Origin: Candidatus Sumerlaeota bacterium
Lineage (GTDB): Bacteria > Sumerlaeota > Sumerlaeia > MWCT01 > JAUWMI01
Assembly: GCA_030613245.1 (NCBI GenBank)
Contig: JAUWMI010000009.1
Coordinates: 1 to 64,000 of the forward strand
Reading direction: 5' to 3'
DNA: 64,000 bases
Of this stretch, positions 20,567-64,000 are shown piece by piece. Below the pieces are notes generated by a model, which saw only the letters and a list, made by a program, of their open reading frames with translations, ran no database searches and was not told the DNA's origin. The number at the start of each line of letters is the position of its first letter. The stretch's first letter is position 1. Position numbers and translations under genes: made by a program.

Positions 20567-21211
20567 ATGAAATTCTTTCTCGATACCGCTGACATCGAAG
20601 AGATCAAGCGAGCCAAAGCCCTTGGCATCCTTGACGGCTTGACCACCAACCCAAGCCTGGTGAGCAAAACTGGTCGGAAATTCTCTGAACTCCTACCTGA
20701 GCTCGTCACCCTTGTTGACGGCCCAATCAGCGCCGAAGTTATAGCCACCGACACTGCAGGCATGATAAAAGAAGCAGAAGCACTGGCCGCTGTAGCACCA
20801 AATATTGTGATCAAGATCCCCCTGATCCCCGACGGCCTCGTAGCCACCAGGGTGTTGAAGAGCAAGGGCATCAAGACAAACGTCACACTCTGCTTCAATG
20901 CGCTCCAGGCACTGCTCGCCGCCAAAGCAGGCGCTACCTACGTAAGCCCTTTCATCGGTCGCCTCGACGACATCGGCCACGTTGGCATGGACGTCGTGAG
21001 TGATATTAAAACCATCTTCACCAATTATAAGTTCACCACCCAGATTATCGTCGCCAGTATTCGGCATCCACTCCACGTACTGGAAGCCGCACTGATCGGT
21101 GCCGACATCGCCACCATCCCCTTTTCTGTGTTCGACAAACTCGTCTCGCATCCACTCACCGACAAAGGGCTCAAAAGATTTCTTGACGACTGGAAAAAGG
21201 TCCCCCGCTAA
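20567..21211 (+). CDS. tal: Fructose-6-phosphate aldolase/transaldolase (TalC/MipB type)
   Basis: 214 residues, the length of the short transaldolase class. It starts [13 protein letters not shown], and contains [11 protein letters not shown], the Schiff-base lysine in [31 protein letters not shown], and [12 protein letters not shown]. It works in the non-oxidative pentose phosphate pathway, or as an aldolase on fructose 6-phosphate; the two cannot be told apart here. A GGAGGAAAGGAG site precedes the ATG. Confidence 0.92.
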
Positions 21212-21947
21212 GTACATATCAAATACAATGACGTATTATGATTCATTATGAAAAATAGAGATATTGAGTCTTTCAAAAAATGCATTCAGAGGTTATGCTC
21301 GCAGCCGTGTTGAAACCGTTGTATGTTGTCGGGGCAGACCCGTGTGTCTGCCCTAAAAAAAAGGGCGAACACATAGGTTCGCCCCTACATGCCGATAAAT
21401 GTATCTCCTATTCATCCAGTCTGCCCCTATTTCATCCCATTATTATAATGTAAGGGCGTTCAATTGAACGCCCCTACTTGCCCATCCTGTTAATTGTGCT
21501 GATCTTTTGTTACATCAATAAGCCCCAGGCTCACTAATGCCATACTCTTCCCAGTTATCTGGGGCAACGTCCCACAATATTGCAAGCCCTGAAAGGGCGT
21601 AATATTCTCAATCGCTGGTTAATGACTGGGGCATGAATCTTTCGTGGGTATAAAGATTATTTCGCCCTATTCAGGGCTGATGGAGGGAAATAATTTAACC
21701 TTAAACCCAGCGCTACGCACTGGGCTATTTTATTCCGTTCCTTCGGAACTTAACAATTCTTGCGATACCATAGCCATAATCAGAATTGCTTCCCCCTGCC
21801 TGTTTTGCCCACACTAAATTCTGAGATATCAGATGTCGCCATGCCTTCGGGTTCTTGCGTCTGGATTCGGGAAAGAGGGAAGATGGAAGTGAGAAGTGGG
21901 ACGCAGGAAGGCATCCGGTGAGTATATTGGATGGATTTCTGGATGTC
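21212..21947 (+). other. 736-bp intergenic repeat field
   Basis: No gene is visible. It holds three GTAGGGGC-type palindromes (21331-21477) and, at about 21570-21755, another set of hairpins: GCCCTGAAAGGGC, CGCCCTATTCAGGGC, AACCCAGCGCTACGCACTGGG and CCGTTCCTTCGGAAC. It separates the transaldolase gene from the convergent FHA/kinase operon, where terminators are expected; the hairpins may serve this. Confidence 0.6.
21331..21477 (+). repeat. Cluster of three GTAGGGGC-type palindromes
   Basis: Units at 21331-21353 (inner arms CAGACCCGTGTGTCTG), 21363-21388 (GAACACATAGGTTC) and 21450-21477 (GTTCAATTGAAC). The outer GGGGC/GCCC arms are shared while the inner arms differ but remain self-complementary. 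Confidence 0.8.
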
Positions 21948-23654
21948 CTAGCTGGTAATAAGCTGCCTACTTGTAGGAAGGACCATTATAAATTTGGCGC
22001 CACGACCAATGTGGGTTTCCACCCGGATGGTTCCTTTATGCCGCTCAACGATCTTCTTAGAAATAGCCAGTCCAAGTCCTGATCCTTCAGAGCCCCTGGT
22101 ACCGAAAAACACACTCCAGATTCTCGGTAGCACCTCATCGCTAATACCCAGACCTGTGTCTCGGACCGAAATGGCAAAGTAATCGCCCTCGGGTAATGCT
22201 TCAGTTCGAATCTCGATTCGGCGTTCGTCATCAGGCTTCTCCGGTTTGTCCTCAATGGCCTCAAAGGCATTCCCTATCAGGTTCCTCAGGGCCTCTTCAA
22301 TCGCTTTCTCGTCCATCCACGCGAGTTTCACCGTCGGGTCCAGAGTCACAGCCAGATCAATAGACTGCTGCATCACTGCTGACCGGTATGAATCGCTAAT
22401 ACGCTTAACAAACTCATTGACGCTCACGATGACCAGCTCGAGCTTACGGTCAGTTGAATAAGCCATTATTCCCTGCATAAGGTTAAGCATCTGCTCGTAG
22501 CTTGCTTTCAACTCCCTCCACACTTGCTCGGCGCCTTGCGAATCCTGCCTGCGCAGCGCGCGATCCATCTGTTTCAGGCGGTCTGAACTGTCCGACAGTA
22601 CGCTCTGCAGAAACTGACCCATGCTGGCAATCGTCTCGCCAGTTGCAGCAGACCGGTCACGTCGCACCTGCTCGCGATGCAGCGAATCGTAGTCAAGCGC
22701 CAGACCAACCTGATTAGCAATACACGCCAGCAGTGAAATGTCGCTCTCCGTAAACGTTCTCTTCGCCGTGAAGGAGTCAAGATACACGGCTCCCCGGACC
22801 CGTTTGCCCCCTACAAGTGGCGCGCACAGCGAATTCTGGACTTGCCCCCTCAGAATACTACTCGAACTATACGGCTGCTGCGGGGTAAACAGAACGGCTA
22901 TCTTTTCGCTCACCACGCGCCGGACAATCGCCGTGCTGAAGCCCATATTGTCATCTCGCGACACTGACAATTCTGGCCGAAACCAGCACGTTTTCACCTC
23001 GAATTCCGACGCCTCTCCCCCTTCCATGTACAAATCATGCCGGTAAATCACCAGCACGCGATCCGCACCGGTCGCTACACCCAGACATTCAATCACCTTC
23101 TCCAGCATTATTCCTGAGTCGCGAGTCTCATTGATAATTTCACCCACTTCGTATAGCACACGCAAATTACGCCGAATCTGATTCAGCATTTTGGGATCAA
23201 TATTTTGCACCTTCTCCAGACTCGCGACCGAGAGCTCCATAGCGGTCTTCGCCTCACTTGCTTTGATCTTCGAGCTAATGATATCGCGATATTCCTCAAA
23301 CGCCTCCTCTTCAATCACGGCTCGCACTTCCGCGGTGCTACACTCATCCAGATCCGATGTGCGCAGAAAAATCAGCTGATAGCGAGATTCCTTACCAAAC
23401 GTGATCACCGCATTGTTATCCAGGAACTGCTCAACAATACGCCGGCCATTCACGAACGTCCCATTCGTACTCTGCAGATCCGTGACCACATACTGGCCGT
23501 CGCGAAATCGCACCACACACTGGTCGCGCGAGATCGCAGGTGAGGACAGCACAATATCAACTTCCGGACTCCGACCGATGCGCACCTCGCCCTGCGCAAT
23601 CTCGTAAGTCTGCGAATCCTTCCCTTCCACACAGAGTTTTAGTTTTGCACTCAT
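21948..23654 (-). CDS. FHA-GAF-histidine-kinase-like protein lacking the phosphoacceptor His
   Basis: 568 residues. FHA domain at about 1-97 (GRSPEVDI, then NGTFVNGRR), although the usual SxxH is SRDQ at 42-45. GAF domain at about 165-325. A DHp-like two-helix region at about 335-405 reads GETIASMGQFLQSVL where relatives have xxLSHYIKNIL, so the phosphoacceptor His is replaced by Gln347. The HATPase domain is complete: N box NLIGNAFEAIED, G1 DTGLGI, G2 GSGLGLAI. FHA domains bind phosphothreonine, and the upstream gene 11 bases away is a Ser/Thr kinase, so the kinase may dock on or feed this protein. It may act as a pseudokinase or an ATP-dependent scaffold. Confidence 0.85.
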   Translation of the reverse strand: MSAKLKLCVEGKDSQTYEIAQGEVRIGRSPEVDIVLSSPAISRDQCVVRFRDGQYVVTDLQSTNGTFVNGRRIVEQFLDNNAVITFGKESRYQLIFLRTSDLDECSTAEVRAVIEEEAFEEYRDIISSKIKASEAKTAMELSVASLEKVQNIDPKMLNQIRRNLRVLYEVGEIINETRDSGIMLEKVIECLGVATGADRVLVIYRHDLYMEGGEASEFEVKTCWFRPELSVSRDDNMGFSTAIVRRVVSEKIAVLFTPQQPYSSSSILRGQVQNSLCAPLVGGKRVRGAVYLDSFTAKRTFTESDISLLACIANQVGLALDYDSLHREQVRRDRSAATGETIASMGQFLQSVLSDSSDRLKQMDRALRRQDSQGAEQVWRELKASYEQMLNLMQGIMAYSTDRKLELVIVSVNEFVKRISDSYRSAVMQQSIDLAVTLDPTVKLAWMDEKAIEEALRNLIGNAFEAIEDKPEKPDDERRIEIRTEALPEGDYFAISVRDTGLGISDEVLPRIWSVFFGTRGSEGSGLGLAISKKIVERHKGTIRVETHIGRGAKFIMVLPTSRQLITS

Positions 23655-23665
23655 TTTATATCTTC

Positions 23666-26600
23666 TTAATGAATGGTTTCCGGCGAAATAGTCCTCAGCA
23701 TCTCGTAAAGATCATTCCCGTCTCTGGGGCGTTGCTCTCGATCCTTTTCCAGACAGCTAAAGATCACCTCACGAAACCTTTCCGGCACGTCCGCACGCAA
23801 CTTCTCTAACGGTGGCGGCTCGCTATGAAGATGCTGGGCAAGCACATTGCCACCGACAAATGGTGTGTGTCCAACCAGCAGCTCGTACATCATAATCCCC
23901 AAGGCATAAATGTCCGTGCGCGAATCAACTTCCTTGCCCTTGATCTGTTCGGGTGCCATATAGGGTAACGAGCCCATCAGGCTGCCCTCCCGCGTCAGGC
24001 TGACCTCATCGGCCAGCCGGGCCAGGCCAAAGTCCATCACTTTGACGTTGTCGCCATCTGTGGTTATCATGATGTTTTCTGGCTTGATATCACGATGAAT
24101 AATGTTCTCCTTGTGCGCCTGGCTGAGCGCATCAGCAATCTGCAGTGCATAGCGCAACGCCTGCAGAACCGCCAAGGTCTGCTGGTTCTGTAGGATTTTG
24201 CGCAAATTCGTACCCTTGATGTACTCCATGGAAATAAAACATTCGTTCTTTTCCGCACCCACATCGTATATGGCCACAATGTGCTGATGGCTCAGCCGCG
24301 CAGTGGCTCGCGCCTCTCGTACCAGGCGCTGGCGCAACACCTCGTTGTGGCTCAGGTGCGTAGGGAGCACCTTCCACGCCACCTCACGGTTCAGCTTGCG
24401 GTCAAGTGCCAGGTAAACAACACCCATTCCTCCCTCTCCCAGGCGCGACATAATCTGGTAGCGCCGCCTCATGTCGTCGCTCAGATCGTGAATCCGTCGC
24501 GTCATTGAGGCCTGCGAAGCCTGGGATGAACCACTTGCATCGGAAAATACCGCACTCAGCTCCTCAACCCGTTTCAGCCGATCCCGCACATCGCGATAGT
24601 AGAAATCCACTGCAAGAATCTTCTCGTAAATCTCCTTCGAGTTCGGAAAGCGGCCTGCAAACTCGTAGGCCAGGCCCAGACCGTAGAACGCCGGCCGGTT
24701 CTCAAATGTCACCTTTGTTGCCCCACCCAGGCACTCCATGTAGCGGTCAATCGCAATATCATAGAGCTGCTCCTGCACAAAGCACTCGGCCAGGCTCATC
24801 AGGGCATCCCGGCGGTATTCCTCCGCTGGAACCAGCTTCTGAAAGACTTTAATCGCCTCTTCGATGCGCTCCTCCCGCAAGTACAAGACTCCAAGCGCGT
24901 AGGCGATCTGATTGTCCTCGCCATACTCATCCAGATGTTTCTCATAGTTTAAAATGGCCTGCTGGTTCTGATTCACGTCCCGGTAGAGCTTAGCCGCCTT
25001 GTTGTATAGTTCCGCTCGTTCGTAAAAGCTGGCCGACAGCAACTTGTCCGAAAGCCCCTCGTAGAGTTCAGCCGCTTTCTCGAAATTACCTGCTTTCCCA
25101 TAACAATACGCAGCCTTAGCGAGCTCCTGAATTTCCTCATAAAGTCCCGCGGCTTTTCCGAAATTTCCCGCCTTCTCAAAGTGGTTCGCCGCTGTCAGAA
25201 TATCACCAATAAGGTGGATATTCTGCGCTGCCTTCTCGAAGTCGCCCACTTCCTTATAGAGCCGAAACGCCTCTTTATGGTCGGCAATTGATTCATAAAT
25301 CTCCGCTGCCTTGCACAAGTCCTTGCCCGCTTCATAGCACGCTGCGGCCCGCCGTTTACAATCAAGCAGTTGCAGTGACAGCATGACGCGGTTCTCCAGC
25401 GCCAGCGTAAAATGCCCCGGACGTCGATCCAGACTTACCACTCGGATTTTATCTTCATAGTGCCATTGCCCATGACATCTCCCCTCAACGTCAAACACCA
25501 GCACATCATGGGCATCAGCCAAAACTACAAGCGGCTCATCGGATAGATAGAAGAAATCTTCAATCGCCTCACCATGCGTATGACACCACACTTCCTCCAG
25601 GGCTCTGGTGAAAACCCCGATCCGATTCTCTCCTATGCCTGCCAGTACATGGTCAGCCTGGCCTCCGCACCGCAACCTATAAACGCGACCCCCAAGCGAA
25701 CGTCGCTTCCGCACCACACCGCTCGCGTCAAGACAATACAAATCCCCGGCCAGCGTTCCAGCATACACTGTCTGCTGATCCGGCGCATGACAGACACTCC
25801 ATGCCTTGAACGACGTCTCTAGCTCCCACCTGACGTCCCCTGTGGCATCCAGACACTGAATTATGTCCCCCGTGGCGATCACCACACTCTCGCCTTCTCG
25901 AGACACCGACATCCCGCGCACCACCTCAGGGTATTCCTTTTGCCAGACCACCGTATGTTTGTCATCCAGACAGTAGAGCTGCCCATCGTCCGTCCCAACG
26001 ATAATGCGGCTCGCCTTTTCGTCAGTGCTTAGCGACACTGGGAAGGCTGCACCCGGAATCTTGAATTGCCAAACTCGCTCGAATTCCTCATTAAACAAAA
26101 GGATCTCGCGAGTATCCAGTCCTATGACTAGATGCCCGGATTTCAGGGCGTGGGCCGTACAAATCACCTCGCCACGTTCCTCAATCCGTTGCACTTCCTC
26201 ACAAAGCAGCAAAACCTCATATAGCGCCGCTGCCCGCAGTACAGTGCCTGCATCCTGCTCATAATATTCTGCAGCACGCTGAAGGTGATTGCGCTGCTCG
26301 TATATCTCGCCCGCCTTCTCGAAGTTCTGGTTCTTCACATACAGCGCTACTGCCTTCTCCACATCACCGATCAGCACATAAAGCGCCGCCGCGCGGTCCA
26401 GCTGGCCCGCTCGTTCCCAGAGCGCCGCCGCATAAAGGTGTTCCCCGTTTGCTTCGCACGTCTTTGCATCTTCTGCACTACGACCCTTCTTTTCGTACAT
26501 CTGCAGCACAATATCATGGTGCCCAAGCCGCTTGTACAGCCGAATAGCATCGTCCAGATGCCCTCCCATTGCATAGTACTGCGCTGCCTTCTCGCGCTTT

Positions 26601-26962
26601 CCGCTCTGCTCGCAGATCTGCGCGGCCCGACGCCTATCACCGAGATCAAGGTAGAGATCAACTGCCTTCTGCAATTCTCCCCCCAGGAAATAACAACGGG
26701 CAGCCTGGAGCATCAGCTGCTCCTCGCGCAACAACTCGGCTGCCCGCAAAAACTCGCCTCTCCGAATGCACATGGCCGTTGCTTTGCGCCGATTCCCGCT
26801 TTGTACCCACGCCTCTATGGCTGGCGCAAACTGGCCCTGCTCTTCGTAGAGCTCTGCCACGCGCCTGAAGTTCCTCGCGCGCGCATACCAACGAATTGCC
26901 TTCTCCAGATCTCCACGTTCACAATGCTTGCTGGCCCGCGACTCCAGAATTCGGCTGAACAT
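23666..26962 (-). CDS. TPR / beta-propeller / TPR Ser-Thr protein kinase
   Basis: About 1,098 residues. An alpha-solenoid of TPR-like repeats (about 1-270, units such as EKAIRWYARARNFRRVAELYEEQ) is followed by a WD40/PQQ-like propeller (about 275-540, with IIVGTDDGQLYCLDD-type blades), a second TPR block (about 545-800), and a C-terminal Hanks-type kinase (about 832-1098). The kinase is complete: GEGGMGVVY glycine loop, VAWK lysine, HRDIKPEN, DFGLA, and APEQ. No membrane segment is seen, so it is cytoplasmic. The ATG at 26968 has no spaced Shine-Dalgarno, whereas 26962 has AAGG 6 bases upstream. It is between the PilB-like ATPase and the FHA protein genes in one operon. It is paralogous to the kinase at the end of the window. 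Confidence 0.88.
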   Translation of the reverse strand: MFSRILESRASKHCERGDLEKAIRWYARARNFRRVAELYEEQGQFAPAIEAWVQSGNRRKATAMCIRRGEFLRAAELLREEQLMLQAARCYFLGGELQKAVDLYLDLGDRRRAAQICEQSGKREKAAQYYAMGGHLDDAIRLYKRLGHHDIVLQMYEKKGRSAEDAKTCEANGEHLYAAALWERAGQLDRAAALYVLIGDVEKAVALYVKNQNFEKAGEIYEQRNHLQRAAEYYEQDAGTVLRAAALYEVLLLCEEVQRIEERGEVICTAHALKSGHLVIGLDTREILLFNEEFERVWQFKIPGAAFPVSLSTDEKASRIIVGTDDGQLYCLDDKHTVVWQKEYPEVVRGMSVSREGESVVIATGDIIQCLDATGDVRWELETSFKAWSVCHAPDQQTVYAGTLAGDLYCLDASGVVRKRRSLGGRVYRLRCGGQADHVLAGIGENRIGVFTRALEEVWCHTHGEAIEDFFYLSDEPLVVLADAHDVLVFDVEGRCHGQWHYEDKIRVVSLDRRPGHFTLALENRVMLSLQLLDCKRRAAACYEAGKDLCKAAEIYESIADHKEAFRLYKEVGDFEKAAQNIHLIGDILTAANHFEKAGNFGKAAGLYEEIQELAKAAYCYGKAGNFEKAAELYEGLSDKLLSASFYERAELYNKAAKLYRDVNQNQQAILNYEKHLDEYGEDNQIAYALGVLYLREERIEEAIKVFQKLVPAEEYRRDALMSLAECFVQEQLYDIAIDRYMECLGGATKVTFENRPAFYGLGLAYEFAGRFPNSKEIYEKILAVDFYYRDVRDRLKRVEELSAVFSDASGSSQASQASMTRRIHDLSDDMRRRYQIMSRLGEGGMGVVYLALDRKLNREVAWKVLPTHLSHNEVLRQRLVREARATARLSHQHIVAIYDVGAEKNECFISMEYIKGTNLRKILQNQQTLAVLQALRYALQIADALSQAHKENIIHRDIKPENIMITTDGDNVKVMDFGLARLADEVSLTREGSLMGSLPYMAPEQIKGKEVDSRTDIYALGIMMYELLVGHTPFVGGNVLAQHLHSEPPPLEKLRADVPERFREVIFSCLEKDREQRPRDGNDLYEMLRTISPETIH

Positions 26963-27022
26963 ACCCATCCTTGCAATACTCTCCGCAACGAGATCTCTTT
27001 ACAGTCGCTATCCATCTCTGTA

Positions 27023-29023
27023 CTAGCTCGTACTTGTTGGCTGCTTGACTTCGGCCCGTTCGGGTGTTGAAACCTCTTCTTTCTCGATCTCAATCCCGCT
27101 CCACCGCTGAATCTCCTGGAACGTCAGATCAATGGTTGCAAAGCTCTCCCTCTCGCTGTACGACAAAACGCTAATCCCCTCCTCCAGTGTGCTAATGTGC
27201 TGCAGTGCCTTGATAAAGCCGGACTCACGCAACGAAATGTAATTCCCCGTCTTGTATGCCAGCCGCCGTATCTCCGCGGCATTCTTATTCAGCAAAAAGG
27301 CGCCACGGATCTCATCGTTCATAGCCAGTAGTTCAAACGTCCCCGAGCGCCCAAAATATCCAGTATAGTTACACTCCGCACACCCCTTGCCGCGGTAGAA
27401 TTCAAACCGATCCGGGTCGAAATTCTTGATATGAAACTCCTTCACGATCTCCACAGACGGAGAATAGCGCTCCCGACACTGCGGACAAATCTTGCGAACG
27501 AGCCGCTGCGAAAGTATCGCCATACTGGTACTCGACAACAGAAACGTCCGCAGACCCGAATCCAGTAGCCGCAAGACCGCTCCGATCGAATCGTCCGTGT
27601 GAATGGTTGAGCACACCATATGCCCTGTCAACGCCGTCTGAATCGCCCCGTACGCAGTTGCTTCGTTGCTAATCTCGCCTATCACCATTACATCGGGATC
27701 CTGATGCATCATAGCCTTTACCCGCTCAGCTATAATCCCCTCCTTCATTGACTTGACCTGGCATTGAGATATCCCTTCAATGCTATACTCCACCGGGTCT
27801 TCCAGCGTCACGATCTTGACGTTCCAGGTATTGAGATAATTCAGGCAGGCATAGAGTGACGTCGTTTTCCCACATCCCGTTGGCCCTGTAAATAGTATCA
27901 GCCCACTGGGCGAATCCAGAATCAATTTCAACGTCTTCAGCACGCGCGGGAGCATGCCCAGGTCTTCCAAATCGCGCAGTCCCAATTCCTTGGTCAATAA
28001 GCGAATCGTCACCGTTCCACCCAGTACCGTTGTGAAGATGGAGACACGCAGGTCAATATCCTGCTTATTATAAGAGATAAAAATCCGCCCCTCCTGGGTA
28101 TCGCGTATCTCTGTAATGTCCATCCGCGCCATGACCTTCAAGCGCCGGATAATCGGATCCATCAGGTACTTCGGCAAATCCGTCCTGTAGATCAATTTGC
28201 CATCAATCCGGTAGCGAACGCGCAGCCGATCTACCTGCGACTCTATATGAATATCACTGGCTCGCTCCTTGATCGCATTGCTCAGAATGTAATTGACGAT
28301 ATTGACGATCTGGCCTGTTCCGCTTCGCGCTGGTGTATCATCATCCATAGGATAACGCCGAAAGGCCGCCTGTTGCGAGTCGTCCACCGGGCTCATTACA
28401 CTACTACTCACCAACTCCTTCTCCTTGACAATCTCCTCGAGCACCTTTTTGATGACCGCCTTCGGTGCCACTGCCATTTCGTACTTCTCACCGAAGGTGT
28501 TGCGCAGAAACTTCTGCGCGAACCCATCTGTCGGATCGTGAACCAGCACCGTTACCGCGCCTTCATTCTCCCACATCGGCAGCACACCGTACTCACGCAT
28601 GAACTTTTCCGGCAGCCGACCGAACAGCTTCATGTCAATCAGCCGCTTGTCAGGTAACACGTACGGGAGATCCATCTGGATGCTGAATGCCTTGGCAAAT
28701 TCTTCCTGCGTAATCGCGCCAAGATCAATCAGAATTTCCCCTATCGGTTTCTTCTTCTCCTTCTGAATCTCCAGCGCCTCTTCAAGTACCTCGGACGTGA
28801 TCGCACGATTCTCAATCAGGATTACTCCAAGATTCACCTTGTGCTCATACTTCTTCGTTACCTCGCGCAGGTCCCGCTTGCTCACGTATCCAAGATCAAT
28901 CAGTATCTCTCCAAGCCGCTTCTTCTTAATCAACTCCTTCTGAACCTGCAGGGCGTGCTGGAGCTGATTCTCATTGATCTTACTGTCCTTAATCAGCACC
29001 TCACCAATCTTTAATCGCATCAT
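27023..29023 (-). CDS. PilB/GspE-type secretion or pilus assembly ATPase
   Basis: 666 residues. Two tandem MshEN/GspE-N domains (about 1-60 and 64-125, each with an LGEILIDLG-type motif) are followed by the ATPase core: Walker A GPTGCGKTTSLY, the His box HMVCSTIHTDDS, and a tetracysteine zinc site (CPQC and CAEC). Such ATPases drive pilin or pseudopilin assembly; MshEN domains of this type bind cyclic di-GMP in characterised cases. The Walker B end reads GEISNEAT where the family has GEIRDxET. No other pilus genes are in the window. It is the first gene of the operon with the kinase (54 bases) and the FHA protein. Confidence 0.92.
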   Translation of the reverse strand: MMRLKIGEVLIKDSKINENQLQHALQVQKELIKKKRLGEILIDLGYVSKRDLREVTKKYEHKVNLGVILIENRAITSEVLEEALEIQKEKKKPIGEILIDLGAITQEEFAKAFSIQMDLPYVLPDKRLIDMKLFGRLPEKFMREYGVLPMWENEGAVTVLVHDPTDGFAQKFLRNTFGEKYEMAVAPKAVIKKVLEEIVKEKELVSSSVMSPVDDSQQAAFRRYPMDDDTPARSGTGQIVNIVNYILSNAIKERASDIHIESQVDRLRVRYRIDGKLIYRTDLPKYLMDPIIRRLKVMARMDITEIRDTQEGRIFISYNKQDIDLRVSIFTTVLGGTVTIRLLTKELGLRDLEDLGMLPRVLKTLKLILDSPSGLILFTGPTGCGKTTSLYACLNYLNTWNVKIVTLEDPVEYSIEGISQCQVKSMKEGIIAERVKAMMHQDPDVMVIGEISNEATAYGAIQTALTGHMVCSTIHTDDSIGAVLRLLDSGLRTFLLSSTSMAILSQRLVRKICPQCRERYSPSVEIVKEFHIKNFDPDRFEFYRGKGCAECNYTGYFGRSGTFELLAMNDEIRGAFLLNKNAAEIRRLAYKTGNYISLRESGFIKALQHISTLEEGISVLSYSERESFATIDLTFQEIQRWSGIEIEKEEVSTPERAEVKQPTSTS

Positions 29024-29261: not shown

Positions 29262-30392
29262 CTAGTTTCGGTAAACAAGCGGCACGCGCCCCCCAACTTC
29301 GCATACAATCTCGTTGGGAATAGTTCCGATCGTCTCAGCAATCTCTTCAATTGGCAGATGAGCTGTGCCTTTCTTTCCATAGATGAGCACTTCGTCACCT
29401 ACCTCTGCGCCCGGAACTCTGGCAACATCCAGCAGAACCTGATCCATACACACGCGGCCAACTATTGGCACCCGACGCCCGCGCACGATCATGACACCAC
29501 GGTTTGACAGACTCCGCGGATAGCCATCTCCGTAGCCAATTGGGACGGTTGCTACGCGCATACGGCGCGGGGCCTTAAACGTACGGCCGTAGCTGATATA
29601 TCGCCCTTTGCCCACGTTGCGTATCATCACGATCCGGCTCAGCAGCGTCATCGCAGGATGAAGAACCACTGTGCGCTCTACAACCGGCGTGGGGTATAAG
29701 CCAAACACTGTAATTCCAGGTCGTACCAGATCAAAGTGGGCATCCGGATGCTGAAGAATCGCCCCGCTGTTAGCTGCGTGAATCTTGCCCGGCCTAAACC
29801 CCACATGCTGGCACTCCTCCAAAACGCATTGAAAATTTCTTAACTGCCACTTCGTGTAGCGCGGCGACTTGCCATCTGAATCTGAAAAATGTGTAAAAAG
29901 CCCGTCAAATCGCAAATGCGCATATCGCACAAGCTCGGGCAGCACTTTCTTCCACTCCTCATGCCAGAATCCAAATCGCCCCATCCCCGTATCAATCTTC
30001 ACATGCACGCCGGCCCTCCGCCCCTGACGCCGTGCTGCGCGATCCAGCGACCGCGCCACGTCCAGGGAACCCAGAGCCACTGAAATCCGCTTGCGCACCA
30101 CAACTTCCGCATCGCTTCGAAACACCGGCCCGAGCATGAGAATCGGGAGTCGAATCCCCTGTGCCCGCAGCGCCACGGCTTCGTCCATCGTTGCCACGCC
30201 GAGCTCCGCTGCGCCACCCTCAATCGCTGCGCGCGCCGCTTCTAGCATGCCATGCCCATACCCACGTGCCTTCACTACGGCCATCACGTGGCGCTTCTTG
30301 CCAATCTTTCTTTGAATCGCCCGAATATTCCTGCTGATTGCGTTCAGATGTATCACCGCAACTGTTGGCCGATGGATTCCTTTGTCGCCCAT
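29262..30392 (-). CDS. alr: Alanine racemase
   Basis: 376 residues, a PLP enzyme making D-alanine for peptidoglycan. The PLP lysine is Lys41 in AVVKARGYGHG (usually VKANAYGHG), the catalytic tyrosine is in ISYGRTF, and GYGDGYPR and GRVCMDQ are conserved. The start ATG follows AAAGGAG by 6 bases. A CACAGAG-type repeat lies between it and the upstream FAH gene. Confidence 0.93.
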   Translation of the reverse strand: MGDKGIHRPTVAVIHLNAISRNIRAIQRKIGKKRHVMAVVKARGYGHGMLEAARAAIEGGAAELGVATMDEAVALRAQGIRLPILMLGPVFRSDAEVVVRKRISVALGSLDVARSLDRAARRQGRRAGVHVKIDTGMGRFGFWHEEWKKVLPELVRYAHLRFDGLFTHFSDSDGKSPRYTKWQLRNFQCVLEECQHVGFRPGKIHAANSGAILQHPDAHFDLVRPGITVFGLYPTPVVERTVVLHPAMTLLSRIVMIRNVGKGRYISYGRTFKAPRRMRVATVPIGYGDGYPRSLSNRGVMIVRGRRVPIVGRVCMDQVLLDVARVPGAEVGDEVLIYGKKGTAHLPIEEIAETIGTIPNEIVCEVGGRVPLVYRN

Positions 30393-54545: not shown

Positions 54546-54631
54546 GACATACCGGCTATTTTCCCCTATTGTCCTTTTTCACCTGTAACGGCAGAAACAA
54601 GGCAATCTCTTTTCGAGCGTTTGGACGCACC

Positions 54632-56527
54632 ATGGCAACACTGCTCGCCATCAAAGGCCAACACATTGGAGTACGATTTCCTCTTGAGTCACGAACAACC
54701 ATCGGTCGTGCAGAGGAGAGCACTATCGAGGTTCCCGATAGCGGTGTGTCACGCCTTCACGCGGAGATCATTCAACGCGGCCGCGCCTTCACCATTTACG
54801 ACAAAGAAAGCAAAAATGGTGTGTTCGTAAACGGCAGACAAGTCAAGGAACACATTCTGTTGAAAAACGATGAGATCAAAATCGGATCCACTATCTTCCT
54901 GTTTGATTCAGACTTTGATCTTAAGAACGCGCGCTACAGCAACAAAACAATCTACCTGAGCGCTCCTCAGGATGACACGGCCAAAACCGAGCTGCCAAGT
55001 ATCGAACCAGCTGAGCTGATAGAATACGAACGTACCACACTCGAATTGCTCAATCAAGTGGGCGATCTCTTGTCGCCCTCCTCGCTACCACCTCCCGAAG
55101 CACTCAATTCAATGATGCACCAGCTCCTTGTGACGTTCAAAGCCGAACAGGGCTTTATTATGCTTTGGGATCCGGTGCTGAAAGAACTACAGCCCATCGT
55201 GGCCGCAGGTGAAGACGAGCAAATTCCAGCCAGCAAGACTCTTATCAACAGCGTGTATCACGAAAAAAAGGCGCTGCTCTCCTCGGACTTGGATATTGAC
55301 TATCGCTACGCCAGCGAGCCTCTGCCTGAACCACCCGGCCGCTCGACGCTCTGCGCCCCATTACTTCTTGAGGACGAGCCGATCGGCCTGATCCAGATCT
55401 CCAAGCGAGGACTTGACCAGTATAGCCTGAAGGATTTACGGCTGCTGCAGGCGATTAGTCGCCTGGTGGCAATATCAATCGAGCATTCCCAGAGCGCTGA
55501 CAGACTCAAGACCCAGCCGGAGGATCTGGAGCAGCACGGCGTCATCGGCGAAAGCCGCCAGATTAAAGATGTCGCCAACATGATTCACAAAGTGGCCCCG
55601 CACACCTCATCCGTCCTATTCACCGGCGAAACCGGTACGGGCAAGGAACTCTTTGCCTGCGAGCTGCACCGATTGAGTCCCCGAAGCCACTATCCATTTA
55701 TTGCCATCAACTGCTCGGCAATTCCCGAGACACTGTTCGAGAGCGAGCTGTTCGGCTACGAAAAAGGCGCGTTTACCGGCGCAAGCAGACTACAGCGGGG
55801 CAAAACCGAACTCGCCCACGGCGGTACCTTGCTCCTCGATGAAATTGGCGAACTGTCTCTCACCGTGCAACCCAAGCTCCTCCACTTCTTGCAGGATAAG
55901 GTGTTTTACCGTGTTGGAGGGACACGACCCGTCAAGGTTGATGTGCGCATAATCGCTGCCACGAACACAGATCTCGAGAAAGCAGTGAGAGAGGGGAGGT
56001 TTCGCGAAGATCTGCTATTCCGCCTGAGCATAGTGAAGATTCACATTCCTCCGTTGCGTGAGCGGCGGTCCGACATCACCCTGCTGGTCAATCATTTTAT
56101 CAAGAAATGCTCACTCGAGATTCAAAAACCCATTCTTGGCATTAGTGACAACGCAATGATCCTGCTCGAAAAATATTCCTGGCCTGGCAACATTCGTGAA
56201 CTAGAAAACTGTATCGAACGCGCCATTATCCTCTGCGAAGGGAAAATTCTTAAACCTCAGCATTTCCTGCTCGAATCCCCGTTTGCCGTTCCGTCCGCTG
56301 CCCCAGTGCCTTCCTCTTCCGCGCAGCGTAATGCCACCAATCAAAAGGAGGAACCAATAAAAAAGCCAGAACCGATTCTTCCTCTTAAAGAATATGAACG
56401 ACGCTATGTGCAAAGCGCGCTGGACCAGTGTCACTGGAACCAGCAGGAAGCCGCCCGGCTTCTGCAGATTCACCGCAACACACTGCGAAAAAAAATTCGG
56501 GACTACAGGCTTAAGCCCAAGACCTAA
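54632..56527 (+). CDS. FHA-GAF-sigma54-dependent transcriptional activator
   Basis: 631 residues. An intact FHA domain (about 1-95; IGRAEES, SRLHAEI and NGVFVNG) is followed by a GAF domain (about 135-285), an AAA+ domain (about 300-535) with Walker A GETGTGKE (332-339), the GAFTGA sigma54-contact loop (379-384) and the R-finger region, and a Fis-type HTH (about 585-625, [19 protein letters not shown]). It activates RNA polymerase-sigma54 from enhancer-like sites; the FHA domain suggests control by Thr phosphorylation. The frame extends to 54569, but [13 protein letters not shown] at 54632 fits the FHA start. Confidence 0.92.
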
Positions 56528-60224: not shown

Positions 60225-60252
60225 GTAGAGACAGATTATAATCCGCCCCTAC
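60225..60252 (+). repeat. Degenerate GTAGGGGC-family palindrome
   Basis: GTAGAGACAGATTATAATCC followed by GCCCCTAC; it overlaps the last four bases of the TPR-kinase gene on the other strand. Confidence 0.55.
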
Positions 60253-63200
60253 GATGTCCGCACGGTTTTCAGATCGCGAATCAACTCGTCCATGCTGGCA
60301 TAGCGGCTAGCTGGGTCTTTCTCCAGGCACCTCATGACCATAACCGCCAGGCGCTTTTTCACGCCCTTCATGGCTGGAGGTTTGGTAAAAATATGATGGT
60401 AGGCCACATTGCCGAGGCGGAAGGGTGGATAGCCCATTAGCATTTCGTACATGACCACACCAAGGGAATAAACGTCGGACCCCGCGCTGCATGGTTTCCC
60501 CTCATTCTGCTCAGGCGACATATAGAGCGGAGTTCCGACGATAATCTCTGAGGAGGTCTCTTGAGCTTCCGTCATCACCGTAGCAATGCCAAAATCTGTG
60601 AGTTTGACCTTCTGATCCGTAGTAATCATCACATTAGCAGGCTTTATATCCCGATGAAGTATGTCCATGCCATGCGCATAGGCAAGACCCAGCGCAATCT
60701 CAATGGCGTAATGGAGCATTTCGCTGACCGACAGCTTCTTCTTCCCAGCAATAATTTGCTTCAAATCCTCGCCTTCAATAAACTCCATGGAAATATACTT
60801 ACGCCCTTCTTCCTCACCGATGTCAAAAATCCGTACAATATTAGGATGCGTCAGGCGTCGAGCCGCCTTCGCCTCTTGTTTGAACCTTGCGACCGCCTCC
60901 TTGTCACGTGAGAAATGCGCCGGAAGAATCTTGAGCGCAATCACCTCATCCAGCTCCCGATCATAAGCCTTGAAGACCAAACCCATACTGCCTCTGCCAA
61001 TTTCCTCAAGGAGCTTAAAACGGCGGCGCGCACGCGTATTAAGCTGCGCCCAGATCGAACGATGCTGCCCCTCCGGAATCGCGGCATTCTCCATCTCCTC
61101 TCGCAACTCGCGCACCCTCATACTAACATCACGATACGCAATGTCCACCGCCATGATCTCTTGAAATGCTGCGATTGCCTTTTCAAACTCCCCTCGCGTA
61201 TAAAAATCATCACCCAGCTCATAGAGCAAATCCTTAACGTCATCCGTCTTCTCAAGCTTTGTGTAATAACCGTAGGCGACCTCGAGCAGGGCCTTTTTGT
61301 GAAAACACTCGCCAAGGGCGAGCATTGCATCGGGGCTATCCTTCTTGTACTGCAGAACTTTCTGGTACGTCGCAATGCAGTCGTCCAGCTCGCCAATCTC
61401 GAAGTAGAGCTGGCCCAATTTGCTCATCAGTTCGACATCCGGCTCCTTTTGTGTAGCAATATATGCCGCATACGTCTCTGCCAATTCATACAAAACATTC
61501 GCATTTTCTTTGGCCAGCTCATAGGCAGATTCCAGGTCGGCAATCGCCTCTTCAAAGCGGCCGGTTAGCTTGTAAATTACTCCCCGTTCAATCCACACCT
61601 GCACATTCACCGGATCCTTCGTGATAATCTTTGTATAGCAATCAATCAATTCGCCGCAAAAACGGTGGTAATCACTCTGAAGCGTGGTTAGCTCCCTCAA
61701 TGCCTGATCAATCCGTCCCACATCAATATAGAGCGCACTCAGCTTCAGAATCGCCTCGCTCGTCCAGACATTTGTTCCTTTAAACCGCTCCAGCCGTTTA
61801 ATCACCTCTGGAAGGCTTTCCGGCATTCGGGCTACGATCAAGTCAACTACCTGCCACCCCTGGTCCACCAGCTCCATCTGGAACAGCATCTCCATCAGGT
61901 GGAGCTGTAATTCACGATCAAACGGATCCTCGCTCGAGGCCTGTTGAATGATTTCCAGCGATTGTCTGGATCTCATGTTCATCTTAGCATAAAGCTTTGC
62001 CAGCCGGTTCGTAATGGTGACATCATCGGGAATGGCCATCCGGATGCGTTCATAGACCTCCAGAGATCGGTCGTAATCTCCCATTTGCTCATAGCAGCGG
62101 GCCTGGCATCCCAGGAGATCCAGATCATCCGGCTTTACGCGCAGCGCTTTTTCGTACACAGCCAGCGCCCTCTTGCTATAGTTCTTCACCTTCGAGTAGA
62201 TCAGAGCCAGAGCCACACAAAGCTTCTCGCTATCCATGCACTTCACATATAGCGATTCCAGAAATTCCAGCGTCTCCCGATCAACCTCCTCGCATTGGCT
62301 CAGACAGAGGGTCAGAATATCGAGCACATTCGGATCCAGCACCTCCGCGCTCAGCTGTTTCCTGCAAAAATCAAACACCGGCTCTACCTGATTATTCTCA
62401 ATGTAGGACTGCATGAGAGCATAGCGCAGTGGTTTGTTTCTCGGAAGCCATTGAATAGCGGCCTGGTAATACGCAATGGCCTCCAAAGAGCGATCCTCGT
62501 TGTCCAGTGCAAACTGCGCAAGCTTGATCACTATCCCTGGCGAGCGGTCGCCTTTTTGATAACACCGCTGATACACCTCTTGCGCATCAACACCCACTGC
62601 ATTTCTATCAAGATAGTACTGGCCAAGGCACACACACACCTCCGGACAATCTACCCGTGCGGACTCGCCCGGCTTTCGCTGCTCATCCAGCGGGCATAAC
62701 TGGCGGCATAATGTGTAAATCTCCTTGTCGAACACAATGCCTTTATCTTGCTCCCCTCTCGCATGAGCAATCGCGCTCAAGCGACTCAACAGCGCCAACT
62801 TCTCACCACCAGCCAGCAACGCCCCTTCGTAAACCCGGACCGCCTTGTCGTCATCACGATTCTCCTGTAAATAATACTCGCTGAGCTGCCGCTCCACACT
62901 CCCAGCTTCCGGCGCCAGACTGTAGAGCTCCTCCAGAATCAGCCGCCTGCTATCTGCGTCAAGCTGCTCCAGACACTCCAACTCGTCTGCTGTACCGCTC
63001 TCAACAATACACCAGGCCACAATTCGCACTGCCGTGCTATCGCAGGCATACAACCGCAAATGCCGCAGCCCTTCCTCCAACGCCCTCGCATATTCGCCAT
63101 TCGCAACATAGGCATGACACAATCCCAGACGCGCACCCATGTGCTGTCGCTGTATCTGCAGTGTCTCTTTGAAGCACTTCATGGCATGAGCATCATGGCG

Positions 63201-64000
63201 AGCAGTCTTAAAGTAAAAGTCACTGAGAATAGGCAGCATATTGGCATCCCGGCATTCAAATTCCACCGCCTTCTCATAGAGCATTATTGCCCCGGTATCC
63301 GTGCGTTGAAAAGCTGCGTATGCGGTTGCAATCGGCACTACAATATCCGCCCCCAGCCCGCTTTTCTCTTTCAGCTCTTCATACACCTCGATCACATCTG
63401 ACCACTGCTGACCTTCGTAGTAGCAGCGCCCCAGCAATCTCAGGTAGCGCTCGCGCTGCTCCGTTAAGGGCAGAACCCTCCTATAGATCCCAACAGCCTC
63501 AGCAGTCACCGCATTTTGCGCAGCATAGTAGTCTGCCACGACTTGCAGCACATCCATGTCTGTCCGATTCAGTTTCAAATACTGCATAAACCAGTGGAGT
63601 GTCGAAGGGCTAACTTGTTGAGTGTCAATGTAATAGCTAACAATACGCTTAAGGACGGTGATCTCCTGGGGATCATCCTTGTGGATTGCCGTCAGAATTG
63701 CCAGTCCTTCCTCCTGACGACCAATGCCAAAGTAAGCTTCGCTCAGCAGTAGCTGCAGCTCTTTGTCATGCGGCTTATAGGCAAGATATTGCTCGTACCA
63801 CTGAACCGCCTCACTATCAATTCGCCTGGCACTACTGTGGCTCTTCACAATTAGGTCCAGGATAGCCATGTGCTCTCCATCCGACTGCAATATCTCTTGG
63901 TACACCGACATGGCCTTCTCATCCGTCTTACCCAAATTAACGTATATGTCAGACAGCGAATGCAGAGCCTCGGCATAGGTCTCCTCTGCCGCCTTCCAGT
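60249..64000 (-). CDS. TPR-rich Ser/Thr protein kinase, 5' end outside the window
   Basis: At least 1,249 residues; the frame is open to the window edge (WKAAEETYAEALHSLSDIY), so the N-terminus is missing. About 950 residues of TPR-like repeats (for example AIADLESAYELAKENANVLY) lead to a C-terminal Hanks-type kinase (last 259 residues) with GRGSMGLVF, IALK, HRDIKPAN, DFGIA and SPEQ, so it should be active. The linker (AVDIAYRDVSMRVRELREEM) matches the paralogue at 23666-26962 (AVDFYYRDVRDRLKRVEEL), but no propeller is seen. No transmembrane helix in the visible part. Confidence 0.88.
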   Translation of the reverse strand, partial: WKAAEETYAEALHSLSDIYVNLGKTDEKAMSVYQEILQSDGEHMAILDLIVKSHSSARRIDSEAVQWYEQYLAYKPHDKELQLLLSEAYFGIGRQEEGLAILTAIHKDDPQEITVLKRIVSYYIDTQQVSPSTLHWFMQYLKLNRTDMDVLQVVADYYAAQNAVTAEAVGIYRRVLPLTEQRERYLRLLGRCYYEGQQWSDVIEVYEELKEKSGLGADIVVPIATAYAAFQRTDTGAIMLYEKAVEFECRDANMLPILSDFYFKTARHDAHAMKCFKETLQIQRQHMGARLGLCHAYVANGEYARALEEGLRHLRLYACDSTAVRIVAWCIVESGTADELECLEQLDADSRRLILEELYSLAPEAGSVERQLSEYYLQENRDDDKAVRVYEGALLAGGEKLALLSRLSAIAHARGEQDKGIVFDKEIYTLCRQLCPLDEQRKPGESARVDCPEVCVCLGQYYLDRNAVGVDAQEVYQRCYQKGDRSPGIVIKLAQFALDNEDRSLEAIAYYQAAIQWLPRNKPLRYALMQSYIENNQVEPVFDFCRKQLSAEVLDPNVLDILTLCLSQCEEVDRETLEFLESLYVKCMDSEKLCVALALIYSKVKNYSKRALAVYEKALRVKPDDLDLLGCQARCYEQMGDYDRSLEVYERIRMAIPDDVTITNRLAKLYAKMNMRSRQSLEIIQQASSEDPFDRELQLHLMEMLFQMELVDQGWQVVDLIVARMPESLPEVIKRLERFKGTNVWTSEAILKLSALYIDVGRIDQALRELTTLQSDYHRFCGELIDCYTKIITKDPVNVQVWIERGVIYKLTGRFEEAIADLESAYELAKENANVLYELAETYAAYIATQKEPDVELMSKLGQLYFEIGELDDCIATYQKVLQYKKDSPDAMLALGECFHKKALLEVAYGYYTKLEKTDDVKDLLYELGDDFYTRGEFEKAIAAFQEIMAVDIAYRDVSMRVRELREEMENAAIPEGQHRSIWAQLNTRARRRFKLLEEIGRGSMGLVFKAYDRELDEVIALKILPAHFSRDKEAVARFKQEAKAARRLTHPNIVRIFDIGEEEGRKYISMEFIEGEDLKQIIAGKKKLSVSEMLHYAIEIALGLAYAHGMDILHRDIKPANVMITTDQKVKLTDFGIATVMTEAQETSSEIIVGTPLYMSPEQNEGKPCSAGSDVYSLGVVMYEMLMGYPPFRLGNVAYHHIFTKPPAMKGVKKRLAVMVMRCLEKDPASRYASMDELIRDLKTVRTS

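Follow-up and report, generated by a model that had tools for sequence, protein, structure and literature searches.

A conserved gene pair of a PilB/GspE-type ATPase and a solenoid-propeller Ser/Thr kinase in Candidatus Sumerlaeota and a second phylum

Introduction

Can an ATPase of the type IV pilus (T4P) type come under the control of a Ser/Thr kinase encoded beside it? The question is raised by a locus of a Candidatus Sumerlaeota bacterium (assembly GCA_030613245.1; 4.29 Mb, 96% complete) that lies in the first 64,000 nucleotides of contig JAUWMI010000009.1, a stretch referred to in full as the window. Three minus-strand open reading frames (ORFs) encode a PilB/GspE-type ATPase, a large Ser/Thr kinase and a protein with an FHA domain, and an earlier note on this DNA saw in them a complete circuit coupling a pilus or secretion motor to threonine phosphorylation. 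Through comparison across genomes, we find that the ATPase and kinase genes are a real two-gene unit present in two phyla, and that the FHA gene is an accessory not conserved with them. T4P genes are reported in all Sumerlaeota metagenome-assembled genomes of PMC8092238.

The three genes are located as the earlier note had placed them, with intergenic gaps of 54 bases (ATPase-kinase) and 11 bases (kinase-FHA):

27023..29023, minus strand: PilB/GspE-type ATPase gene (666 amino acids; distinct subfamily; C-terminal tail at residues 620-666)
23666..26968, minus strand: Ser/Thr kinase gene (1100 amino acids; helical solenoid 2-252, propeller 254-536, helical solenoid 538-810, kinase domain 837-1092)
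21948..23654, minus strand: FHA-GAF-HATPase_c gene (568 amino acids; probable pseudo-histidine-kinase; accessory, not conserved with the ATPase-kinase pair)

The ATPase and kinase genes form a conserved pair

The full kinase architecture was recovered in 10 of 39 genomes of the Sumerlaeota class through protein and profile searches and, with the same profile, in 2 of 68 genomes of a second phylum. Two sets of 386 genomes, together with these 68, were searched by profile, with only the top candidates scored in each genome; the contig scan relied on one peptide pattern that is absent from the second-phylum copies. In every one of the 12 kinase-bearing genomes, the ATPase gene lies directly upstream of the kinase gene on the same strand, at identities of 32-52%. 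The ten Sumerlaeota pairs feature gaps of at most 174 bases and variable neighbours otherwise. The second-phylum pairs have gaps of 0 (L135) and 22 bases (L138), with 38-40% identity for the ATPase and 32% for the kinase. The kinase of G029 is divided between the ends of two contigs, with the ATPase next to its N-terminal half. The ATPase and kinase trees concur on all well-supported groups, with no supported conflict.

Adjacency in 12 of 12 genomes across such divergence is not chance, and it constitutes our main result: the ATPase and kinase form a real two-gene unit. Because this synteny is conserved across two phyla, a functional link between the two genes is likely. The idea of a Sumerlaeota-only invention was rejected once the kinase, and then the pair, were found in another phylum.

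Separately, a 311-amino-acid ORF without a family match in G025 (L061 10673-11608, minus strand) overlaps the first reading-frame start of the ATPase by 4 bases and is possibly a lineage-specific operon member.

A distinct ATPase subfamily with an intact active site

By domain search, the window ATPase consists of a T2SSE core (4.9e-101) and MshEN. It scores below the equivalog cut-offs for both PilB (TIGR02538; 434.5 against 675.65) and GspE (TIGR02533; 446.9 against 630.25), whereas another ATPase of the host genome, on contig C25, passes both and adjoins a T2SSF/PilC gene. A T2SSF gene stands beside the ATPase at 5 other ATPase loci of the same genome; none was found beside the window copy, which has the kinase gene there instead. 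In the tree, the 13 pair-type ATPases form one clade (support 99/100) on a long stem, disregarding row L088, which was in a wrong reading frame. They are a distinct subfamily.

Catalytic residues were mapped onto Geobacter metallireducens PilB, with residue roles taken from PMC5424180. In 11 of 11 Sumerlaeota copies, the Walker A Lys, Asp-box Glu, catalytic Glu, both Arg fingers and both His-box His show no variation; these copies carry the residues that define the PilT-like (T2SSE) ATPase superfamily, and the zinc cysteines are retained in every ATPase copy. The GEIRD-box arginine is lost in all 13 subfamily members (replaced by S, N, H, A, K, P or G) and present in the 7 other ATPases of the host genome; RQDPD has become H(Q/H)DPD in 10 of the 13. 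The window copy has S452 at the GEIRD arginine and H440 at the RQDPD Arg. These changes, together with one in EDP, had raised the suspicion of a catalytically dead ATPase, which was rejected because every residue named catalytic in G. metallireducens PilB is kept. Past the T2SSE domain, the C-terminal tail reads SYS or SFS in the 11 Sumerlaeota copies. Its serines, S621 and S623 in the window copy, are invariant among them and are possible phosphosites.

What, then, does this ATPase do? The earlier note made it a pilus or secretion motor, a role that is unproven: no platform (pilC) or pilin gene was found beside the pair-type copies examined (13 loci), and a separate PilB of the genome passes the family cut-off. 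The main alternative to motor function, which we consider less likely than not, is that the ATPase has ceased to be a motor and is now a signalling hexamer that senses nucleotide or c-di-GMP (cyclic di-GMP), acts as controller or scaffold of the kinase and has outputs unconnected with pilus assembly. The clade-wide arginine loss, the long stem branch, scores well under the PilB and GspE cut-offs and the lack of a pilus gene alongside at the 13 loci all point this way, as does the precedent of Myxococcus xanthus PilB, which signals to exopolysaccharide production independently of pilus assembly (PMC5544727). Against it, the catalytic residues and zinc cysteines kept in every copy suggest continued ATP turnover. 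Moreover, ATPases encoded apart from their platform are common in T4P biology.

MshEN modules and c-di-GMP

The ATPase N-terminus harbors four MshE-type 24-residue motifs, which make up two tandem modules:

28409..29011, minus strand: tandem MshEN modules, ATPase residues 5-205 (24-residue motifs at residues 5, 36, 64 and 93; MshEN C-subdomain after the second module)

The structure model of the ATPase, a single chain like all of our models, is of moderate quality (pLDDT 71). The MshEN consensus and its extension were taken from PMC5013675 and PMC11731258. According to the latter, a receptor module contains two tandem (R/K/L)LGxx...LxxQ motifs with 11 consensus positions; the first Arg of the motif is dispensable, and no binding was seen for a module in which one motif was degenerate (PMC11731258). 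The window motifs match 8, 8, 8 and 6 of the 11 positions, and those of G013 match 11, 6, 10 and 10. Motifs of this type were found in all pair-type copies. GGDEF proteins occur in 38 of the 39 class genomes, with six matches in the host genome. Judged from these motifs, members of the family could plausibly bind c-di-GMP, and whether the window copy does so is uncertain. Of the two c-di-GMP-binding domains claimed in the earlier note, the tandem modules are present and the claim of binding is weakened.

In the second phylum, a stand-alone MshEN protein of 265 amino acids (L138 13060-13857, minus strand) is encoded directly upstream of the ATPase-kinase pair.

A Ser/Thr kinase with a propeller between two solenoids

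The AlphaFold2 model of the kinase (pLDDT 85.7, pTM 0.53) and its domain matches bear out the combination of solenoids and a propeller that had been read from the sequence:

25361..26209, minus strand: 7-bladed beta-propeller, kinase residues 254-536 (28 strands; PQQ_2 and Beta-prop matches)
23693..24460, minus strand: PknB-like catalytic domain, kinase residues 837-1092 (K866, E885, HRD 958-960, DFG 979-981, activation-loop T992)

From the N- to the C-terminus, the model comprises 19 short helices, the propeller, 18 helices, a low-confidence linker (810-834) and the catalytic domain. This last domain matches Pkinase at 1.9e-55 and displays the glycine loop, VAxK Lys, HRD, DFG and activation-loop Thr of PknB-like kinases; the catalytic residues and T992 are nearly invariant among kinase relatives. 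In Foldseek, PknB, PknA and Stk1 matched the catalytic domain, and WD40 structures, PkwA among them (TMt 0.85), matched the propeller. IFT-A proteins were the top whole-chain fold match; at a TM of about 0.12 the similarity concerns domain order only, and homology is not claimed. The helical repeat at residues 2-252 and 538-664 (window 26965-26213 and 25357-24977) comes to about 13 residues per helix, below the canonical TPR length, and Pfam matches it weakly to TPR/SNAP.

The FHA protein is an accessory

The domain search identified FHA, GAF and HATPase_c in the third protein and no HisKA match. At the position of the phospho-acceptor His, which a histidine kinase carries in its dimerisation helix, the window protein has Q347, and at the conserved FHA His it has Q45. 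Every correctly read homologue of the alignment has His at both positions (rows L093 and L102, in wrong frames, were disregarded). The other FHA residues (G27-R28, S42-R43 and N64) and the ATP-binding motifs are retained, and its tree branch is the longest. Because both histidines are lost, the window protein is probably a pseudo-histidine-kinase with an altered FHA domain.

FHA-GAF-histidine-kinase genes occur in 29 of the 39 class genomes (match below 1e-45), few per genome. Only 2 of the 12 pairs, those of the window and of G012, have one alongside, and the candidate of a conserved three-gene operon was therefore rejected. The synteny expected from the earlier note thus holds for two of its three genes. 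In G012, the FHA-GAF-histidine-kinase gene lies on the other side of the pair, beside the ATPase and 39 bases off. A rough estimate puts such an adjacency by chance at about 1% over the 11 other loci. With so few of these genes in each genome, chance is an unlikely cause of the G012 arrangement, and a loose functional link between the FHA gene and the pair is credible. The FHA proteins of both loci, given the long branches of the tree, may be either orthologues or independent recruits.

Four Sumerlaeota genomes of family f9 (L110 4673-13229, G030:C37, G034:C208 and G038:C76) carry an intact FHA-GAF-histidine-kinase gene a few kb from a giant TPR Ser/Thr kinase of about 1650 amino acids, which belongs to a different kinase family from that of the pair. 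FHA-kinase neighbourhoods seem to be a recurrent theme.

The complete circuit of the earlier note, in which the ATPase would be a substrate of the kinase and the FHA protein would read phosphothreonine and signal via its histidine-kinase part, is improbable. The 11-base kinase-FHA gap, the G012 arrangement and the FHA-GAF-histidine-kinase genes near other TPR kinases in family f9 argue for it. However, no FHA gene was found beside 10 of the 12 pairs, and the window copy has lost the phospho-acceptor His as well as the FHA His.

Surroundings of the locus

Given the short gaps, a single transcript for the ATPase, kinase and FHA genes, as previously suggested, is plausible. The 5' neighbour of the ATPase is an alanine racemase gene ending at 29262, 238 bases off. 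At the other end, a hairpin precedes a convergent gene (20567..21211), and hairpin-type matches in the region overall show no surplus against shuffles:

21361..21386, minus strand: terminator-like hairpin (10 pairs) with a T-run, 3' of the FHA gene

No membrane-helix-like stretch was found in the three window proteins examined (ATPase, kinase and FHA protein). Elsewhere, the window encodes a second large TPR Ser/Thr kinase without an adjoining ATPase (60249-63935, minus strand; 1228 amino acids) and a further FHA-bearing protein (54569-56527, plus strand; 652 amino acids). The named relatives carrying the pair's kinase are all Candidatus Sumerlaeota/BRC1 metagenome-assembled genomes.

Discussion

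That the ATPase and kinase are mere neighbours, held together by shared expression and neither touching nor phosphorylating one another, is very improbable: adjacency alone is no proof of contact and G007 kept the ATPase while probably losing the kinase, but in two phyla the pair has stayed together, at 32-40% identity, through changes in all other neighbours, and the kinase was never seen without the ATPase in the genomes searched.

We tentatively favour, at somewhat short of even confidence, a reading in which a specialised T4P-type ATPase, catalytically competent, is under the control of the kinase and serves machinery whose genes lie at other loci. From the gene pairing, joint inheritance, intact active sites and distinctive ATPase features described above, we infer the physical contact, phosphorylation, direction of control, c-di-GMP input and FHA reading that this model invokes. 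Its core would be a two-gene module of a specialised PilB/GspE-type hexameric ATPase and its own cytosolic Ser/Thr kinase. The solenoids and propeller would dock the kinase onto the ATPase or its membrane platform, where it would phosphorylate Ser/Thr and thereby gate a T4P- or type II secretion (T2S)-type machine with platform and pilin genes at other loci. Input from c-di-GMP may come, or may formerly have come, through the MshEN modules. The host genome would have gained an FHA-GAF pseudo-histidine-kinase in addition, which may read the phosphorylated state or serve as a scaffold for it.

Several observations weigh against control of a working motor. No platform or pilin gene was found beside the pair-type copies examined, and the arginine loss throughout the subfamily could mean altered or lost motor coupling. 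The pair is also missing from most class genomes, though these hold other T4P-type ATPases. Finally, G007 carries the ATPase without the kinase (L109 8165-10174, minus strand). This ATPase nests within the kinase-linked clade and shares an upstream ligA with G021, so the kinase was probably lost there, which makes G007 a natural kinase-loss case to set beside the intact pairs.

A more far-reaching reading, possible though rather doubtful, would see in the pair a so far undescribed signalling system of at least two phyla. In it, a T4P-type ATPase of a new subfamily and its dedicated solenoid-propeller kinase would act as one complex, with Ser/Thr phosphorylation as the output and either c-di-GMP or the ATPase's nucleotide state as the input, or with the flow running the other way. 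Readers such as the FHA pseudo-histidine-kinase would be specific to particular lineages.

How do these components relate to known systems? The window ATPase resembles PilB, MshE and GspE, including Thermus thermophilus PilF with its three GSPII (MshEN) domains, in its T2SSE core, Walker A, Asp-box Glu, catalytic Glu, Arg fingers, His box, zinc cysteines and tandem MshEN; it differs in its sub-cut-off scores, lost GEIRD arginine, C-terminal tail and kinase partner gene in place of PilC/GspF. PkwA-type WD40 kinases likewise join a Ser/Thr kinase to a beta-propeller, whereas the window kinase places the propeller between two helical solenoids and the kinase domain at the C-terminus. In M. xanthus, the FHA histidine-kinase gene espA lies beside the Ser/Thr kinase genes PktA5/PktB8, an arrangement similar to the kinase-FHA part of the window; that arrangement includes no T4P-type ATPase, however, and EspA, unlike the window protein with its missing His, is a real histidine kinase. 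M. xanthus PilB is also an ATPase with MshEN motifs acting in signal transduction, but it serves as a pilus motor too, and no dedicated paired kinase gene is described there (PMC5544727).

The closest working analogues are the threonine-phosphorylation pathway of the type VI secretion system (T6SS) and the archaellum Arn network, both with another machine and gene set. The T6SS pathway PpkA-Fha-PppA (PMC3953482, PMC6082577) similarly links a Ser/Thr kinase gene to a nanomachine component, and the window also has an FHA protein; in contrast to its conserved kinase-FHA gene pair, the window FHA gene is not conserved with the ATPase-kinase pair, and the operon has no phosphatase gene and no T6SS genes. 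In the Arn network (PMC4307647), Ser/Thr kinases (ArnC/ArnD) and an FHA protein (ArnA/ArnB being the network's other named members) control a T4P-related machine, but they act on archaellum gene expression, and no ATPase-kinase gene pair is described. Within open papers, to which the literature search was confined (subscription papers being outside its scope), no system combining a PilB-type ATPase, a Ser/Thr kinase and FHA with T4P was found, in agreement with the earlier note. The types of component are known; the pairing, the ATPase subfamily and the kinase architecture appear to be undescribed.

In summary, the pair is a compact two-protein unit open to direct in vitro testing, and the lost GEIRD arginine together with a neighbouring propeller kinase provides a signature for finding more members. 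Known regulators of T4P and T2S ATPases are c-di-GMP and PilZ proteins; if the proposed reading is true, one of the most widespread bacterial nanomachines would have a novel form of regulation, by a dedicated Ser/Thr kinase that shares an operon with the ATPase.

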